DNA of 64,000 bases from Pollutimonas nitritireducens (GTDB taxonomy: Bacteria; Pseudomonadota; Gammaproteobacteria; Burkholderiales; Burkholderiaceae_B), in assembly GCF_002849615.1 (NCBI RefSeq), contig NZ_PDNV01000003.1, positions 310,001 through 374,000 on the forward strand, given 5' to 3'. A program made the position numbers and the translations under genes. Shown here in pieces: positions 39,431 to 45,429 of this stretch (position 1 is the stretch's first letter; every line of letters begins with the position of its first letter). Below the pieces are notes generated by a model. The model had not been told where the DNA came from. It did not search any database and worked only from the letters and a program-made list of their open reading frames with translations.

Positions 39431-40843
39431 TCAGGCTAGCGGAATAATCTTCCCGGGGTTCAGGATATCGTTGGGATCAAAGGCCTTTTTCAAGCTCGCC
39501 ATCAGATCGAGCGCATCGCGCCCATGTTCGGCAGTCATGAATTCCATTTTATGAAGCCCTACCCCGTGCTCTCCGGTGCACGTGCCATCCATGTCGATCG
39601 CGCGCTGGACGAGCCTGTGGTTCAACTGTTCAGACTCTTCCCATTCCTGGGGACTATCGGAATCAAGCAGCATAAGGACGTGAAAGTTGCCATCACCGAC
39701 GTGCCCGACGATGGTATAGGGAAAGCTGGCCTGATCAAGTTCCGCCGCCGTTTCGGACACGCACTCGGCCAGGCGGGAAATGGGTACGCAAACGTCCGTG
39801 GTACTGGCGCGGCAGCCCGGTCGCAGCTGCAAACCGGCAAAATATGCATTATGGCGCGCCGTCCACAAGCGACTCCGGTCTTCGGGCTGTTCGGCCCATT
39901 GGAAATCCATTCCGCCGTTATCGTGCGTAATGCCCTGCACGATTTCCGCCTGTTCCTTGACGCCCGCCGGGCTGCCGTGGAATTCGAAAAGCAGCAGTGG
40001 TGATTCCTTTAGATCGAGTTTGCTATAGGCATTGGTGGCCTTGACGGCGGCTGTGTCCATGAACTCCACCCGCGCCACGGGCACACCCATCTGGATGATC
40101 TCTATGACACTTTGCACCGCCGTATCGAGCGTGCTGAAATTGCATATCGCGGCCGAGATGGCTTCAGGCTGTGGATACAAACGAATAGTGACTTCCGTGA
40201 TAATGCCAAGCGTGCCCTCGCTGCCAACGAAAATGCGGGTCAAGTCGTAGCCGGCAGACGATTTGCGCGCCCGGTTGGCCGTTTCGATGATGCGTCCATC
40301 GGCGGTGACCACTTTCAACGACATGACGTTTTCGCGCATGGTGCCGTAACGCACCGCATTCGTTCCTGACGCACGCGTGGCGGCCATGCCGCCCAGGCTG
40401 GCATCCGCTCCGGGGTCGATGGGGAAAAACAGACCGGTGTCGCGGATCTCGTCGTTGAGCTGTTTGCGGGTCACGCCCGCCTGCACCGTCGCGGTGAAAT
40501 CTTCGGCGTGGACGGCCACCACCTTATTCATTCCAGAGAGGTCAAGGCTGATACCGCCCTGAATCGCCAGCAAATGTCCCTCCAGCGACGAGCCGACGCC
40601 ATAAGGAATGAGCGGGACTTTATGCTGGTTGCAATGCCGCGCGACCCAGGCGACTTCTTCTGTCGTCAGCGCAAACACGACAGCATCGGGGAGCATGGGC
40701 GGATAGGGAGATTCATCGCGCCCGTGATGTTCGCACACTGCGTGTGCCGTGGAAAACCGGGAACCGAAACGCATCTTGAGCGTATCGAGAAACCCAGCTG
40801 GAATCGCACGGCGTAAATTTTGCGCAAAAGCGGGGGCGTTCAT
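39431..40843 (-). CDS. FAD-linked oxidase, D-lactate dehydrogenase (cytochrome)-like
   Basis: A 470-residue relative of GlcD that fits the D-lactate dehydrogenase branch: IPYGVGSSLEGHLLAIQGGISLDLSGMNKV near residue 82, IDPGADASLGGMAATRASGTNAVRYGTMRENV near 143 (FAD binding), and VGHVGDGNFHVLMLLD plus DGTCTGEHGVGLHKMEFM in the catalytic half. It would oxidise D-lactate or another 2-hydroxy acid and pass electrons to the respiratory chain. AAGGAG lies seven bases before the ATG. It is the first gene before glcDEF and 51 bp after aroG; a TGGT-type palindrome fills that gap, so I infer a separate, regulated dld-glcDEF transcript. Confidence 0.92.
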   Translation of the reverse strand: MNAPAFAQNLRRAIPAGFLDTLKMRFGSRFSTAHAVCEHHGRDESPYPPMLPDAVVFALTTEEVAWVARHCNQHKVPLIPYGVGSSLEGHLLAIQGGISLDLSGMNKVVAVHAEDFTATVQAGVTRKQLNDEIRDTGLFFPIDPGADASLGGMAATRASGTNAVRYGTMRENVMSLKVVTADGRIIETANRARKSSAGYDLTRIFVGSEGTLGIITEVTIRLYPQPEAISAAICNFSTLDTAVQSVIEIIQMGVPVARVEFMDTAAVKATNAYSKLDLKESPLLLFEFHGSPAGVKEQAEIVQGITHDNGGMDFQWAEQPEDRSRLWTARHNAYFAGLQLRPGCRASTTDVCVPISRLAECVSETAAELDQASFPYTIVGHVGDGNFHVLMLLDSDSPQEWEESEQLNHRLVQRAIDMDGTCTGEHGVGLHKMEFMTAEHGRDALDLMASLKKAFDPNDILNPGKIIPLA

Positions 40844-40894: not shown

Positions 40895-42010
40895 TTAAGC
40901 CTGGCTGCCGATCAGGGCATTTGCTGATTGCGCGAGCAGGTCTCGCCGCCCTTCCAATACTTTGCGCCTGCCCTTCACGGCCAGGGACAAGCGCTCCAGC
41001 ACCTTGACCGAAGCATCCCAGTCTATACAGCCGTCGGTAATGCTCTGGCCATAGACCAGGGGCTGTCCAGGGGTCAAGTCCTGGCGACCGCCAACCAGAT
41101 GACTTTCGACCATGACGCCAAAAATACGGTCATCGCCTGCTTCGAGCTGGACGGCGACGTCGTCGATAACCAAGGGCTGGTTCAAGTAGTCTTTATTACT
41201 GTTGGCATGGCTTGCGTCCACCATGATCTGCGCCCGCAAACCCGCTTTATCGAGCGTTTGGCACGCGGCCTCGACATTTGCCGCATCGTAATTGGGATTT
41301 TTCCCACCGCGCAGGATGACATGGCAGTCTTCGTTGCCCACGGTGGACACGATGGCCGAGTGTCCGCCTTTGGTCACGGAAAGGAAATGGTGAGGCTGGG
41401 AAGCCGCCTTGATGGCGTCGATGGCTATCTTGATATTGCCATCGGTGCCATTCTTGAAACCCACTGGACATGACAGCCCTGACGCCAGTTCCCTGTGGAC
41501 CTGGCTTTCTGTGGTGCGCGCGCCGATCGCACCCCAGGAAACCAGGTCGGCAATGTATTGCGGCGTGATCATGTCGAGAAATTCGCAGCCGGCGGGGATG
41601 CCCATCTGGTTGACGTCTATCAGCAACTCACGCGCGGTACGCAGCCCCTGATTGATATTGAAGCTGCCATCGAGCCCGGGATCATTGATAAGGCCCTTCC
41701 AGCCCACGGTAGTACGCGGCTTTTCGAAATAGACGCGCATGATGATTTCAAGCTCGCCTTTGAAGCGTTCCCGTTGCGCCACCAGGCGCTTGGCGTACTC
41801 CAGTGCGCCCGCGGTGTTGTGTATGGAACATGGCCCGATTACGACCACCAACCTGTCGTCGATCCCCTGCAAGATATCGTGCACGGCGTGGCGCGCACCA
41901 TAGACGGTTGCCGAGACCTCGGTGGTGCAGGGGAACTCGCGCATGATATGTGCCGGAGGACTGAGCTCCTTGATTTCCCGGATGCGTAAATCGTCAGTAT
42001 TGTGGGTCAC
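40895..42010 (-). CDS. aroG: 3-deoxy-7-phosphoheptulonate (DAHP) synthase, AroG type
   Basis: A 371-residue class I-alpha DAHP synthase, which condenses phosphoenolpyruvate and erythrose 4-phosphate as the first step of aromatic amino acid synthesis. Visible: VVVIGPCSIHN with the metal Cys near residue 60, MRVYFEKPRTTVGWKGLINDP near 92-112, AIGARTTESQVHRELASG near 166-184, and VDASHANSNKD with the metal His near 267. The N-terminal 50 residues include the region that in E. coli AroG forms the Phe feedback site. A Phe-rich leader peptide and terminator lie directly upstream, so expression is most likely attenuated by charged tRNA-Phe, which supports Phe control at the RNA level too. Confidence 0.95.
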   Translation of the reverse strand: MTHNTDDLRIREIKELSPPAHIMREFPCTTEVSATVYGARHAVHDILQGIDDRLVVVIGPCSIHNTAGALEYAKRLVAQRERFKGELEIIMRVYFEKPRTTVGWKGLINDPGLDGSFNINQGLRTARELLIDVNQMGIPAGCEFLDMITPQYIADLVSWGAIGARTTESQVHRELASGLSCPVGFKNGTDGNIKIAIDAIKAASQPHHFLSVTKGGHSAIVSTVGNEDCHVILRGGKNPNYDAANVEAACQTLDKAGLRAQIMVDASHANSNKDYLNQPLVIDDVAVQLEAGDDRIFGVMVESHLVGGRQDLTPGQPLVYGQSITDGCIDWDASVKVLERLSLAVKGRRKVLEGRRDLLAQSANALIGSQA

Positions 42011-42050
42011 TTCTTAACTCCAGTGTAATTGCCAACTTCGCAAGCGGTAC

Positions 42051-42084
42051 AAAAAAAGCCGCCTAGCGTCGCTGGCGGCTTTTT
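42051..42084 (-). terminator. Attenuator terminator in the aroG leader
   Basis: On the minus strand AAAAAGCCGCC pairs with GGCGGCTTTTT around an inner AGC/GCT helix, followed by a run of seven T: a textbook intrinsic terminator. It lies between the leader ORF (ends 42102) and the aroG start (42010), so it can only act as an attenuator for aroG; by symmetry it may also stop plus-strand transcripts. The 5' arm segment CCGCCAGCGAC (42078-42068) is also complementary, in 10 of 11 positions including one G-U, to GCCGCTGGTGG inside the leader ORF (42138-42128), giving an alternative antiterminator. Confidence 0.88.
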
Positions 42085-42101
42085 GGGAATTTGGTTCTTT
42101 T

Positions 42102-42188
42102 TTACTGCGTACAACGCTTCCCTTCCTCCACCAGCGGCTTTGGAAAACTAAAAAAATAAAAGAAAAAGTAGGCGAAAGCGTGCGTCAT
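42102..42188 (-). CDS. aroG leader peptide, Phe/Tyr-rich
   Basis: A 28-codon ORF, below usual gene-finding length, starting MTHAFAYFFFYFFSF and ending in GKRCTQ. Seven of the first fifteen codons are Phe and two are Tyr; the dense block FFFYFF covers codons 8-13. Phe is thus strongly enriched, as in the E. coli pheA leader ([15 protein letters not shown]). The stop codon lies 18 bases before the attenuator hairpin. Low charged tRNA-Phe would stall ribosomes in the block while the segment at codons 16-20 pairs with the terminator arm, allowing transcription into aroG. The ribosome binding site is weak (GAG six bases upstream). A possible promoter TTGGCA-18-TAGAGT would put the transcript start almost at the ATG; an earlier promoter is equally possible. 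Confidence 0.85.
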   Translation of the reverse strand: MTHAFAYFFFYFFSFPKPLVEEGKRCTQ

Positions 42189-42277
42189 ATTCAAACTCTA
42201 GCACAGAGTACTGCCTTCTGCCAATCAAAAAATTAATAATAAATTCATCGTTTTGGTCACTGCCTCGTACAACATTC

Positions 42278-42309
42278 ATTTGAGTAGAAATGATTATGTA
42301 GTGTATGAT
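42278..42309 (+). promoter_or_regulatory. Candidate ehuBCDA promoter with EctR-like operator
   Basis: TTGAGT (42280-42285) and TATGAT (42304-42309) are 18 bp apart, a reasonable sigma-70 promoter 80 bp before the ehuB start codon. The 17-bp element ATTTGAGTAGAAATGAT at 42278-42294 overlaps the -35 box and matches the element at the ectR promoter (ATTTCAACAGAAATGAT) in 14 of 17 positions. A repressor bound here would block RNA polymerase. Confidence 0.5.
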
Positions 42310-42388
42310 TTTTGCAGCTATCGTTTCATACGAACAGATACTGCGGCGAGTCCTCGTCACACACCCGCTCAACAAACAGGACATGCAC

Positions 42389-43246
42389 ATGAAAAATAAA
42401 TCCACCATCGCTCTATGCACCCTGGCTGCGACACTGCTGATGGTCGCAGCACGCCCGGCTTCTGCTGCCACCCTCGCACAAGTCAAGGAGCGCGGCTACA
42501 TCCGCGTGGCAATCGCCAATGAAATTCCTTATGGTTACATGGATATGGACGGCAAAGCCAAGGGGGTGGGGCCTGACGTCGCCAAACACGTCATGGAGCA
42601 GTTGGGTATTAATGAGATCAAATGGGTCACGACCAATTTCGGCTCCTTGATTCCAGGATTGCGCGCAAATCGCTTCGATATGGTGGCCGCTGAAATGGCT
42701 ATTCTTCCGCAACGATGCAAAGAGGTTCTTTTTTCGGAACCGAACAGTTCGTATGGCGAAGGACTGCTGGTGGCCAAGGGAAATCCCGACGACATCCATA
42801 GCTTCGAGGCATTCGCCAAAAGCGACAAGAAAATTGCCATCATGGCCGGTGCCGACCAGCTTGAGATGCTGCAGTCCCTGGGCGTACCGTCCGATCGCAT
42901 GGTGACCATTTCAAATAATGCCGACGCCATTTCCACCGTAGCCACTGGTAGAGCAAGCGCCTATGCAGCGACCAGCCTGACCGTAAGCGAGCTGGCTGGA
43001 AAAAGTGACAAGGTCGAGCCGGCAGCCAACTTCACCGACCCGGTTATCGGCGGCCAACCTGCACGCAGTTGGGGGGCATTCACATTCACCCAGGATTCCC
43101 AGGATCTGCGCGACGCGGTCAGTGCCGAATTGGCAAAGTTTAAAAAGACAGACGGTTGGCAAAAGACCATGTCGCACTATGGCTTCAGCGCAACCGATGC
43201 AAAAGAGTCGTTCAACAAAGCCACCGAACAGCTATGCGCCGGTTAG
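42389..43246 (+). CDS. ehuB: Ectoine/hydroxyectoine ABC transporter substrate-binding protein
   Basis: A 285-residue periplasmic protein of the family-3 binding-protein class. The signal peptide (TIALCTLAATLLMVAARPASA) is cleaved before ATLAQVKERGYIRVAIANEIPYGYMD. The GYIRVAIANE(I/P)PYG segment, GVGPDVAKHVMEQLGI, and RFDMVAAEMAILPQRC agree with EhuB, which binds ectoine through an aromatic cage. The ATG at 42389 is favoured because AGGA lies seven bases before it; another ATG at 42383 is too close to that site. First gene of ehuBCDA, convergent with the ectoine synthesis operon. The EhuB assignment rests on sequence pattern plus this context. Confidence 0.88.
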   Translation: MKNKSTIALCTLAATLLMVAARPASAATLAQVKERGYIRVAIANEIPYGYMDMDGKAKGVGPDVAKHVMEQLGINEIKWVTTNFGSLIPGLRANRFDMVAAEMAILPQRCKEVLFSEPNSSYGEGLLVAKGNPDDIHSFEAFAKSDKKIAIMAGADQLEMLQSLGVPSDRMVTISNNADAISTVATGRASAYAATSLTVSELAGKSDKVEPAANFTDPVIGGQPARSWGAFTFTQDSQDLRDAVSAELAKFKKTDGWQKTMSHYGFSATDAKESFNKATEQLCAG

Positions 43247-43289: not shown

Positions 43290-43961
43290 ATGGAATGGCT
43301 CAGTTACAGCAAGCCGCTGCTTGAAGGTGCCTGGGTAACAGTGCAGCTGACGCTGTACTCGACCATACTGGGCGCTTTCTTTTCCTTTGCGTTCGGCATT
43401 GGCAAACTTTCCCGGAACTGGGTGGCTAAAGGCATTTCGGTTTTCTTTATCGAGATATTCCGCGGCACATCACTGCTGGTGCAGCTTTTCTGGCTTTATT
43501 TCGCCTTACCGATACTGGGTCAGGCCATAGGCATAGACTTGCGCCTGCCCCCTGTGGTTGCCGGCACATTGGCTCTTGCCCTCAATATCGGTGCCTATGG
43601 CGCTGAAGTGGTGCGTGGCGCCATCCAGGCTGTGCCTCATTCGCAGCACGAGGCGGCGAAAGCACTGGACTTTACTCCCCGGCAAACTCTGTGGCGTATT
43701 TTGTTACCGCAGGCCGTTCCGGAGATGATGCCAAGCTTCGGCAATCTTGCCGTGCAAAATCTTAAAGACACCGCCCTCGTATCGCTCATCAGTCTGGGAG
43801 ACCTGGCTTTTCGCGCCGAGCAGATTCGCAACTTCACCCAGGACAGCACCACCATCTATACGCTGCTGCTATTCATGTACTTCGGTATGGCATTGGTATT
43901 GACCGCCATCATGAAACTGATCGAGCGTTCGGTCGGGCGCTGGCGCTCGGGGAGGGCCTGA
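43290..43961 (+). CDS. ehuC: Ectoine/hydroxyectoine ABC transporter permease EhuC
   Basis: A 223-residue HisMQ-type permease with about five helices: FFIEIFRGTSLLVQLFWLYFALP near residues 50-72 and the ATPase-docking EAA loop SQHEAAKALDFTPRQTLWRILLPQAVPEMMP near 117-147. The EhuC identity follows from gene order B-C-D-A and position beside ect genes; by sequence alone it is a polar amino acid-type permease. It lies 43 bp after ehuB and 2 bp before ehuD. Confidence 0.88.
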   Translation: MEWLSYSKPLLEGAWVTVQLTLYSTILGAFFSFAFGIGKLSRNWVAKGISVFFIEIFRGTSLLVQLFWLYFALPILGQAIGIDLRLPPVVAGTLALALNIGAYGAEVVRGAIQAVPHSQHEAAKALDFTPRQTLWRILLPQAVPEMMPSFGNLAVQNLKDTALVSLISLGDLAFRAEQIRNFTQDSTTIYTLLLFMYFGMALVLTAIMKLIERSVGRWRSGRA

Positions 43962-43963
43962 CC

Positions 43964-44656
43964 ATGCTATTCGGCATAGAGTGGGACACAAGTAATAACT
44001 GGCTATTTGCCGGATCCATATTTCCCATACTGCTAAAGGGCCTGGTCGTAACCATCCAGGCTACCGTTCTGGGTTTTGCCGTGGCTGCAGTGCTGGGTCT
44101 GGTGCTGGCCGCCCTGAAATCGGCACGGCTGCGCATTATCTCGTGGCCGGCCCGCCTGATTACCGAGTTTGTTCGCGACACGCCGCTATTGATTCAGCTG
44201 TTTTTCCTTTACTACGTGCTGCCGGAATACGGTATTGTGCTGCCGGCATTTCTGACCGGGGCGCTTGCCTTGGGCGTTCAGTACAGCGCCTACATGTCGG
44301 AAGTGTACCGGGCCGGCATCGAGTCGGTTTCCCGCGGACAAACCGAAGCGGCCCGCGCGCTGGACCTGTCTGCACTTCGAACTTTTTTCTTCATTATTGT
44401 GCCGCAAGCCATTCCTCGTATCGTGCCGGCCCTGGGCAACTACCTGGTGTCAATCATGAAGGATGTGCCAGTGCTGTCGGTCGTGTCGGTCCTTGAAATG
44501 TTGAACGTAGCCAAGATTATCGGCGACCGGACCTTCAACTACCTGATTCCCCTCTCGATGGTGGGCGGCTTGTATCTCGTGCTCACCTTGTTTGCCTCAG
44601 GTGCCATTCGATACCTGGATACCCGCCTTCCCAAGCAAGGACTGCCCCTGCGATGA
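43964..44656 (+). CDS. ehuD: Ectoine/hydroxyectoine ABC transporter permease EhuD
   Basis: A 230-residue partner permease: LITEFVRDTPLLIQLFFLYYVLPEYGI near residues 65-91 and the EAA loop GQTEAARALDLSALRTFFFIIVPQAIPRIVP near 125-155. It forms a heterodimer with EhuC in the inner membrane. Its stop overlaps the ehuA start by four bases, so the two are coupled. Confidence 0.88.
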   Translation: MLFGIEWDTSNNWLFAGSIFPILLKGLVVTIQATVLGFAVAAVLGLVLAALKSARLRIISWPARLITEFVRDTPLLIQLFFLYYVLPEYGIVLPAFLTGALALGVQYSAYMSEVYRAGIESVSRGQTEAARALDLSALRTFFFIIVPQAIPRIVPALGNYLVSIMKDVPVLSVVSVLEMLNVAKIIGDRTFNYLIPLSMVGGLYLVLTLFASGAIRYLDTRLPKQGLPLR

Positions 44657-45429
44657 ATGAACCCATTATAAAATTCGATAATGTCGTCAAACGCTTTGGC
44701 GATATCACTGTGCTGGATTCCCTGAACTTCCAGGTTCAGAAAGGTGAAAAAGTCACCATTATCGGCCCGTCCGGGTCTGGTAAATCCACAGTGTTGCGCA
44801 TCCTGATGACGCTGGAAGCCATCAATGAAGGCATAATCCACGTGGCCGGCAAGCCGCTCTGGCATGAATACAAGGACGATAGGCTGGTGCCTGCCAGCGA
44901 AGGTCACCTGCGCGAAATGCGCAAGGAGATGGGCATGGTGTTCCAGCAGTTCAACCTGTTTCCGCACATGACGGTACGCCGCAATGTGACCGAAGCGCCA
45001 GTGCAAGTGCTGGGCTTGTCAAAAGCTGAAGCTAACCAGCGCGCTGAAGAATACCTCGATCTGGTGGGCCTGTCTGATCAGGCGGACAAATTCCCCAGGC
45101 AGTTGTCGGGAGGACAGCAACAGCGCGTAGGCATTGCGCGCGCCCTGGCCATGCGTCCGAACATCATGCTGTTTGATGAGCCTACGTCTTCACTGGACCC
45201 TGAGCTGGTCGGCGAAGTGCTGACAGTCATCCAGCGCCTGGCCGAAGAGCATGACTTGACCATGCTGCTCGTGACCCACGAAATGCAATTCGCCAAGCAG
45301 ATTTCCGACCGTGTTTGCTTCTTCGACAAAGGCAAGATTGTGGAAGAAGGTCCACCGGAAATCCTGTATACCAGCCCCAAAGAAGAACGGACCCGCGAAT
45401 TCCTGAAGAATTTCATTAATCAGGAATAG
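44653..45429 (+). CDS. ehuA: Ectoine/hydroxyectoine ABC transporter ATP-binding protein EhuA
   Basis: A 258-residue ATPase: Walker A GPSGSGKST near residues 38-46, an insertion with LWHEYKDDRLVPASEGHLREMRKEMG near 73-98 that is typical of EhuA, Q-loop FQQFNLFPHMT, signature LSGGQQQR near 152, Walker B IMLFDEPTSSLD and the switch His in LLVTHEMQFA. Powers uptake of ectoines from the medium, for osmoprotection or as a carbon and nitrogen source. No ectoine-degradation genes (doeA, eutD, etc.) are in the window, which favours osmoprotection. Confidence 0.9.
   Translation: MNEPIIKFDNVVKRFGDITVLDSLNFQVQKGEKVTIIGPSGSGKSTVLRILMTLEAINEGIIHVAGKPLWHEYKDDRLVPASEGHLREMRKEMGMVFQQFNLFPHMTVRRNVTEAPVQVLGLSKAEANQRAEEYLDLVGLSDQADKFPRQLSGGQQQRVGIARALAMRPNIMLFDEPTSSLDPELVGEVLTVIQRLAEEHDLTMLLVTHEMQFAKQISDRVCFFDKGKIVEEGPPEILYTSPKEERTREFLKNFINQE

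Follow-up and report, generated by a model that had tools for sequence, protein, structure and literature searches.

How is transcription of aroG controlled in Pollutimonas nitritireducens? The gene encodes 3-deoxy-D-arabino-heptulosonate 7-phosphate (DAHP) synthase, the enzyme that sets the flux into all three aromatic amino acids, and in E. coli the regulation of DAHP synthase is handled by isoenzymes together with DNA-binding repressors. In the 64,000-nucleotide (nt) stretch of contig NZ_PDNV01000003.1 that we have analyzed (positions 310,001 to 374,000, referred to below as the window, with coordinates counted from its first letter) aroG lies on the minus strand and is preceded by a short open reading frame (ORF) rich in Phe and Tyr codons and by an intrinsic terminator. 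We consider it very likely that these elements belong to a ribosome-mediated transcription attenuator, which would set the level of aroG transcription through the speed at which Phe and Tyr codons, and in relatives Trp codons as well, are translated.

The leader ORF, MTHAFAYFFFYFFSFPKPLVEEGKRCTQ, extends over 28 codons on the minus strand, from an ATG at 42188 to a stop codon at 42102. A base-by-base check agrees with an earlier note made from the letters of the window, which had placed seven Phe and two Tyr codons among the first 15; these are the aromatic codons of the leader and all of them fall within codons 5-15 (42144-42176), a putative sensor block of sequence F A Y F F F Y F F S F in which aromatic identity is kept among relatives, with F, Y and W interchanging. 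The resulting density of nine F/Y/W per 14 codons was reached by none of 3240 dinucleotide shuffles (40 for each of the 81 upstream regions described below), and a density of eight by only one. The intrinsic terminator that the same note had proposed at 42084-42051, with seven U on the transcript, is present in the sequence and is recovered both by folding of the leader, with a stem-loop energy of -19.4 kcal/mol, and in the comparative alignment; a simple scan of the minus strand did not list it because the rule used does not allow a bulge. Upstream of aroG there is, then, what an attenuator calls for, namely an ORF rich in codons for end products of the pathway and a terminator between that ORF and the gene. 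The gene itself (40895-42010, minus strand) starts with GTG, 7 nt 3' of a Shine-Dalgarno sequence GGAG (42018-42021) that was read from the sequence, and encodes a type I DAHP synthase of 371 amino acids (NF006723, 584 bits, cut-off 568). No other DAHP synthase was detected in the genome, since the type II family PF01474 has no match there and a search with PF00793 returns a single protein besides AroG, namely KdsA.

In order to establish whether the arrangement is conserved we have compared 81 aroG loci, comprising the window and its best 80 relatives, a choice that is biased toward close relatives of AroG. In each locus short ORFs beginning with ATG or GTG and lying no more than 400 nt upstream of aroG were scored by their best 14-codon window of F/Y/W, and a score of at least six was obtained in 67 of the 81 loci, as compared with 50 of the 3240 shuffles. 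Together with L053 and L074, which score 5, these make up a set of 69 leaders; L035, also with a score of 5, was excluded by eye, and starts were picked by hand in L013 and L017 (an upstream ATG) and in L054 (an internal ATG). A leader ORF rich in aromatic codons, a terminator and a segment 2 that can be aligned (the outer 5' arm of the antiterminator, see below) are present together in 69 of the 81 loci, and an intrinsic terminator separates the leader from aroG in all 69 of the leaders, a step that carries no shuffle control. The loci are spread over Beta-, Gamma- (Xanthomonadales) and Alphaproteobacteria and, to judge from this comparison, the aroG leader is not restricted to Alcaligenaceae. 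The earlier note had proposed that a peptide leader attenuates aroG transcription by means of the terminator and antiterminator considered here, and had named as evidence to the contrary homologous leaders that lack the ORF or have drifted away from aromatic residues; when this was examined 69 of 81 loci proved to have kept an aromatic leader, which supports the proposal.

Codon usage within the leaders provides a separate gauge of selection. In 61 of the 69 leaders the first base of the GG[C/T]GG core of segment 2 occupies a third codon position (the search pattern also admits A at the fourth base), and these 61 were used in a nearest-relative comparison; the remaining eight, in which segment 2 lies in another phase or could not be located, were left out. 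Simple counts by codon position were dropped in favor of this comparison, as they are not clean, F/Y changes falling at position 2. Among single-base differences in 50 pairs all 27 of the third-position changes at aromatic codons are synonymous, exchanging only T and C and never giving A or G. Switches between F and Y account for 16 of the 25 nonsynonymous changes, against an expectation of 12.8% (p=3e-9, a value that serves only as a guide because the pairs are not independent and that is uncorrected for phylogeny), and the nine others lead to other residues, five of them being Tyr/His exchanges. Given that synonymous third-position changes and F/Y switches dominate, the reading frame is very probably translated and its residues held aromatic, while the choice among the aromatic residues appears to be fairly free.

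Which amino acids, then, would such a leader sense? The loci were sorted into five groups by their record labels, without a tree; metagenome-assembled genomes are included (L008, L015, L016 and L072 among them), L040, labelled Mycobacterium, was put provisionally with the Alphaproteobacteria, and L033, L058, L074 and L081 belong to no group. Over the 65 grouped leaders, 20 of Alcaligenaceae type and 45 in the other four groups, mean contents of F, Y and W are 5.2, 2.4 and 0.1 for the Alcaligenaceae type, 4.3, 2.5 and 0.9 for the Burkholderia type, 4.5, 2.1 and 0.4 for the Oxalobacteraceae type, 2.7, 3.0 and 1.0 for Xanthomonadales and 2.0, 2.6 and 1.4 for Alphaproteobacteria. The predominance of Phe in the window, where it makes up seven of nine aromatic codons, and in the Alcaligenaceae-type means would be in keeping with an attenuator that responds to charging of tRNA-Phe only and tolerates Tyr codons as bystanders. 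We regard this as unlikely, however. Tyr is found in every grouped leader (20 of 20 of Alcaligenaceae type and 45 of 45 of the others) and Trp in 37 of 65, or 34 of the 45 outside the Alcaligenaceae type; F/Y exchanges are the dominant nonsynonymous change; and the target, aroG, stands at the shared entry to all three pathways. The Phe-specific sensor of the earlier note is thus probably too narrow, in view of the swapping of F and Y between relatives and the frequency of Trp beyond the Alcaligenaceae type. A broader statement, to which we give about an even chance, is that the leaders form a widespread and previously undescribed family of pan-aromatic attenuators, in which Phe and Tyr codons, joined by Trp codons in most of the other groups, are interchangeable and gate the first common aromatic step in Beta-, Gamma- (Xanthomonadales) and Alphaproteobacteria, which is leaderless (transcribed from the leader AUG) at least in the Alcaligenaceae group, and of which the enteric pheA and pheST leaders may be specialized relatives.

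The pairing on which attenuation would depend involves a bipartite antiterminator. Its outer helix joins segment 2, CGCUGGUGG (42128-42136), to segment 3, CCGCCAGCG (42070-42078), which is at the same time the 5' arm of the terminator, and its inner helix joins GGGAA (42118-42122) to UUCCC (42085-42089), all on the minus strand and defined by alignment and folding. The longer stretches 42138-42128 and 42078-42068, for which 10 of 11 pairs including one G-U had been claimed, were recounted with the same result. Segment 3 is shared by two alternative structures, as is expected of an attenuator, with covariation that is modest. Taken by itself the window's pairing stands out only moderately from chance, four of 200 shuffles being as good, and support for the antiterminator must come from conservation. 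Applied locus by locus, a duplex shuffle test gives at most 10 equally good shuffles out of 200 for 45 of the 69 leaders, with values of 42, 109 and 146 for L002, L039 and L040, respectively, and because of this unevenness we have relied on the alignment. The latter is sequence-based, with structures defined from the window (and from L034 for the Oxalobacteraceae-type set); the automatic call of segment 2 fell elsewhere in L017, L039, L059, L077 and L081.

In the alignment of 67 distinct sequences the proportion of paired cells is 98.2% for the terminator stem, 92.8% for the outer antiterminator helix, of which eight of nine pairs were counted, and 63.8% for the inner helix (70.2% in a set of 20 sequences). 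Versions of antiterminator and terminator slid along the alignment pair less. One terminator pair is exchanged between A-U and G-C, in 34 and 33 sequences, and the terminator covariation score exceeds those of all 500 shuffles, a slide by three columns coming close (0.137 vs 0.145). The covariation score of the antiterminator as a whole lies above all 500 shuffles and above the slid versions.

A candidate promoter lies immediately upstream of the leader ORF (42195-42224, minus strand), with a -35 element TTGGCA (42224-42219), an 18-nt spacer and an extended -10 element TGC-TAGAGT (42203-42195), giving nine of 12 consensus matches and TG 5' of the second hexamer. Taken alone the scan is weak, yielding two promoter-like sites in the window region vs 0.9 in shuffles. 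In all 20 of the Alcaligenaceae-type loci, nevertheless, a TGnTAnnnT motif ends 6-9 nt 5' of the leader ATG, a looser TAnnnT being found at the same place in 12% of shuffles. With the extended -10 element ending so close to the ATG, transcription is predicted to start at the leader AUG (42188, minus strand) or within 1-2 nt of it, and the mRNAs of this group may be leaderless. A Shine-Dalgarno-like 4-mer precedes the ATG in eight of these loci and is missing from the other 12, and L008 has a better-scoring promoter 34 nt upstream. Leaderlessness is not general across the groups, as far as the predicted promoters go, because in the Burkholderia- and Oxalobacteraceae-type loci, where a -10 element was found in 21 of 30, it lies 23-36 nt upstream in 20 of the 21. 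As the promoter rule found few promoters in Alphaproteobacteria and Xanthomonadales, we limit the suggestion to the 20 Alcaligenaceae-type loci. A published case is described in PMC7298713 for trpL-trpE(G) of Sinorhizobium meliloti, where the AUG of the leader ORF is also the 5' end of the transcript; the start predicted here is similar, whereas that leader senses Trp and precedes another target gene.

On this basis the following sequence of events can be proposed. Transcription would begin at or beside the leader AUG. When charged tRNA-Phe or tRNA-Tyr runs short the ribosome would stall in codons 5-13, over all or part of segment 1 (codons 1-8, 42167-42188), leaving segments 2 and 3 free, and the bipartite antiterminator (42136-42128/42078-42070 and 42122-42118/42089-42085) would form before the last arm of the terminator has been made, allowing aroG to be transcribed. 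When aromatic amino acids are plentiful the ribosome would proceed to the stop codon and cover the inner arm of the antiterminator, and the terminator would form. In the absence of translation segment 1 may pair with the segment 2 region, with the same outcome, termination. What the sequences show directly are the elements and their conservation, the selection for aromatic residues at the codon level and the conserved pairing of the terminator and the outer antiterminator helix; the leaderless start, the stalling, the folding order, the pairing of segment 1 and the regulatory response are inferred.

Energy calculations for the window, which assume a ribosome footprint of -17 to +12 about the A-site codon, bear on this scheme. 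With the A site at codons 5-13 the whole antiterminator remains free and RNA up to segment 3 has an energy of -24.4 kcal/mol, falling to -16.5 kcal/mol for the weakened antiterminator with the A site at codon 15. If the ribosome has advanced to the stop codon, the same energy and footprint arithmetic leaves the 3' RNA an antiterminator of -0.1 kcal/mol and a terminator that forms at -19.7 kcal/mol, so that a ribosome at this position could explain the OFF state. The earlier note had objected that such a ribosome would not cover the antiterminator segment and that release at the stop would not be classical; the difference between -0.1 and -24.4 kcal/mol offers a possible answer in principle. 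Between segment 2 and the stop there are 20-26 nt in 18 of the 20 loci of Alcaligenaceae type (13 nt in L015, with the segment 2 call misplaced in L017), 11-17 nt in 15 of 15 of Burkholderia type and 4 nt in six of 15 of Oxalobacteraceae type. The best fold of the naked full leader RNA, at -37.0 kcal/mol, has codons 1-8 paired with codons 19-26 and the terminator intact, the 3' arm of this possible 1:2 protector helix (42111-42132, minus strand) overlapping the antiterminator arms.

In order to find out how far such leaders extend we have built a covariance model, R1, from the 69 leaders with the antiterminator as its structure. Applied to 150 genomes drawn evenly from the order, 118 of which contain aroG, it returned 39 matches in 38 genomes at E <= 0.01; 35 of the 39 share the strand of aroG and precede it at a distance of 22-144 nt. 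Two further matches that do not precede aroG look by eye like plain terminators. Among the 83 aroG-bearing genomes without an adjacent match 15 were checked upstream, and in 14 of these there is no ORF with more than four aromatics per 14 codons. Two second copies of aroG were also checked (L100 and L101), neither of which has a leader. By these searches the leader is thus common but far from universal. The aroG of G052, a 2.0 Mb genome of the window's family (L099), was found without a leader, and the attenuator may have been lost in this small genome. The remaining one of the 15 genomes, G098 (L114), has upstream of aroG a 51-codon frame in which seven of 14 codons are aromatic, Trp being frequent among them, and whose arrangement differs from that of the other leaders.

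Two other R1 matches, in G114 and G124 (regions L096:57-874 and L097:257-951, both minus strand), look like genuine multi-aromatic leaders (MVTFSVVYNVYFYWYRSSGGAKGC and MKTLNIRPFAYFYWYHTNVRYSFALV, respectively). The proteins encoded behind them are homologous (38% over 85 amino acids, 7e-13), belong to no Pfam family and lack any strong NCBIfam match; they may represent an uncharacterized gene under the same kind of switch. In the window's own genome a second R1 match, at 28 bits, is a terminator that by eye follows a cytochrome c gene and is taken as chance, and the third scores 18.7 bits.

When the search was widened to 299 genomes drawn evenly from the phylum, R1 matched 55 times at E <= 0.001, in 54 genomes. 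Inspection of 35 of these (L116-L150) places 24 before AroG and nine before pheS or pheA, with neither leader nor AroG at L145 and L146; of the other 20, nine recur from the order survey, before aroG. The nine pheS/pheA leaders, for example MTNKLFFFVFFFTFP, are matched at 32-45 bits by a model derived from aroG leaders only, and presumably are the enteric pheM and pheL leaders; NCBIfam profiles confirm PheS at one locus and PheA at another, the other seven having been assigned by eye.

The same data bear on what the leader might do other than attenuate. A terminated transcript of ~140 nt containing an ORF is expected, and its function could lie in the transcript itself, as a small RNA or peptide acting in trans with control of aroG secondary; trans-acting products of a leaderless attenuator, peTrpL/rnTrpL of S. 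meliloti, are reported in PMC7298713. The N- and C-terminal residues vary from group to group, however, while the aromatic block and pairing segments stay, and the great majority of R1 matches in the order stand directly before aroG, which makes this improbable as the main function, although the transcript may act in trans in addition. Slightly less probable still is nascent-peptide arrest of the TnaC kind, in which the peptide would stall the ribosome upon binding an aromatic amino acid. Conservation at the level of the peptide as well as the codon would fit, but an arrest peptide is expected to retain specific residues, and in the block the order of residues is not conserved and F, Y and W interchange.

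Several observations weigh against an attenuator on aroG or against parts of the scheme above, beginning with the fact that the evidence is comparative throughout. The leader is absent from 12 of the 81 loci (L035, L049, L050, L060, L061, L067, L068, L069, L071, L075, L076 and L079, L061 being counted as a miss with only 172 nt upstream), and by R1 at least 35 of the 118 aroG-bearing genomes of the order have it, a lower bound set by strict filters. Multi-base codon differences, which lie outside the codon test, include 24 between aromatic and other residues (15 two-base and nine three-base) along with 12 two-base differences between aromatic residues. The number of antiterminator pairs changed on both sides is reached by 133 of 500 shuffles and the number of pair types by 38 of 500, a slide by one column equals or beats two of the counts, and in the 20 Alcaligenaceae-type sequences 51 of 500 shuffles attain the covariation score, in the Oxalobacteraceae-type set 78 of 500. 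The 181-nt leader region as a whole folds no better than shuffles (z -0.23), a value that we regard as uninformative. Once the terminator is complete the minimum-energy fold keeps it at seven of eight stall positions, F12 being the exception, and the antiterminator must therefore form first, persist and win kinetically. Finally, naked RNA ending at segment 3 has as its best fold, at -27.6 kcal/mol, the antiterminator without the 1:2 helix, a result that speaks against this helix. A partner-swap test is weak (29 clusters, Kolmogorov-Smirnov p=0.027, with 34% of swapped partners matching the window's own), an earlier comparison having used a segment that clipped part of the helix in Burkholderia-type loci. 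With the swap test weakly significant and the shorter fold omitting the helix, we do not claim pairing of codons 1-8 with 19-26, for which comparative support is weak.

With regard to known systems, no Rfam family reaches its gathering score in a 4-kb region of the window or in 18 relatives. The closest in kind, RF01859 (Phe_leader), which we take to be the leader of pheA or pheST, gives 29.9 bits in the window against a threshold of 55 bits, and none of the 18 relatives is at the gathering score. This match was rejected as support, and scores near 30 bits mean little, because a plain terminator elsewhere in the same genome reaches 29.3; the gene 3' of the present leader is, moreover, aroG and not pheA or pheST. 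Those two scores are the one argument for chance, or an ordinary terminator beside a T-rich stretch, to which we attach hardly any weight given the conservation across classes, the codon-level selection and the position before aroG. The attenuator that we favor resembles the enterobacterial pheA (pheL) and pheST (pheM) leaders in its Phe-rich ORF, antiterminator and terminator. Unlike them it targets aroG, the first common step, its aroG relatives include Tyr and often Trp codons in their blocks, and in the Alcaligenaceae type its transcript probably starts at or near the AUG. Multivalent attenuators, in which one leader serves several end products of a branched pathway, are known from ilvGMEDA (Ile, Val, Leu) and thrABC (Thr, Ile) of E. 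coli; the sensing of several products proposed here is alike, whereas the aroG leader differs in its aromatic family, genes and sequence. In E. coli aroG, the same gene with a related metabolic signal, control is by TyrR, a DNA-binding repressor, with no known leader peptide, as opposed to the leader here.

Targets of TyrR and TrpR in Gammaproteobacteria are described in PMC5343134, and Table 7 of PMC1173090 has attenuators linked to tyrA that are drawn from the Merino site. In Ralstonia solanacearum deletion of aroG2 raises aroG1-lacZ ~15-fold in rich and 10-fold in limited medium, according to PMC6379268, a rise that would fit control by aromatic supply. Searches of the open PubMed Central literature showed no description of an aroG leader, and older predictions may exist in other journals or databases. 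The class of mechanism is classical; the aroG target, mixed aromatic code and breadth seem new.

The leader and terminator occupy the gap between aroG (42010-40895, minus strand) and a divergent gene for a substrate-binding protein (42305-43246, plus strand). The latter scores above the cut-off of the ectoine EhuB model TIGR02995, at 294.6 bits, and is followed by genes that by eye encode ABC transporter permeases and an ATPase (43290-43961, 43964-44656 and 44653-45429, all plus strand). Directly 3' of aroG on the same strand is a gene for an FAD-linked oxidase of the GlcD kind (39431-40843), below the GlcD cut-off, which may be cotranscribed with aroG.

In P. nitritireducens the sole detected DAHP synthase appears to be governed by one RNA element that averages how far several aromatic tRNAs are charged. 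Leaders of mixed codons lend themselves to asking whether the codons of different amino acids add up in their effect or work as an OR gate, and the Alcaligenaceae-type loci provide a candidate set of leaderless attenuators. For strains making aromatic products a design rule follows, namely that removal of the leader should derepress aroG, and for the ~70 small ORFs in the loci examined here the comparison offers a probable function.

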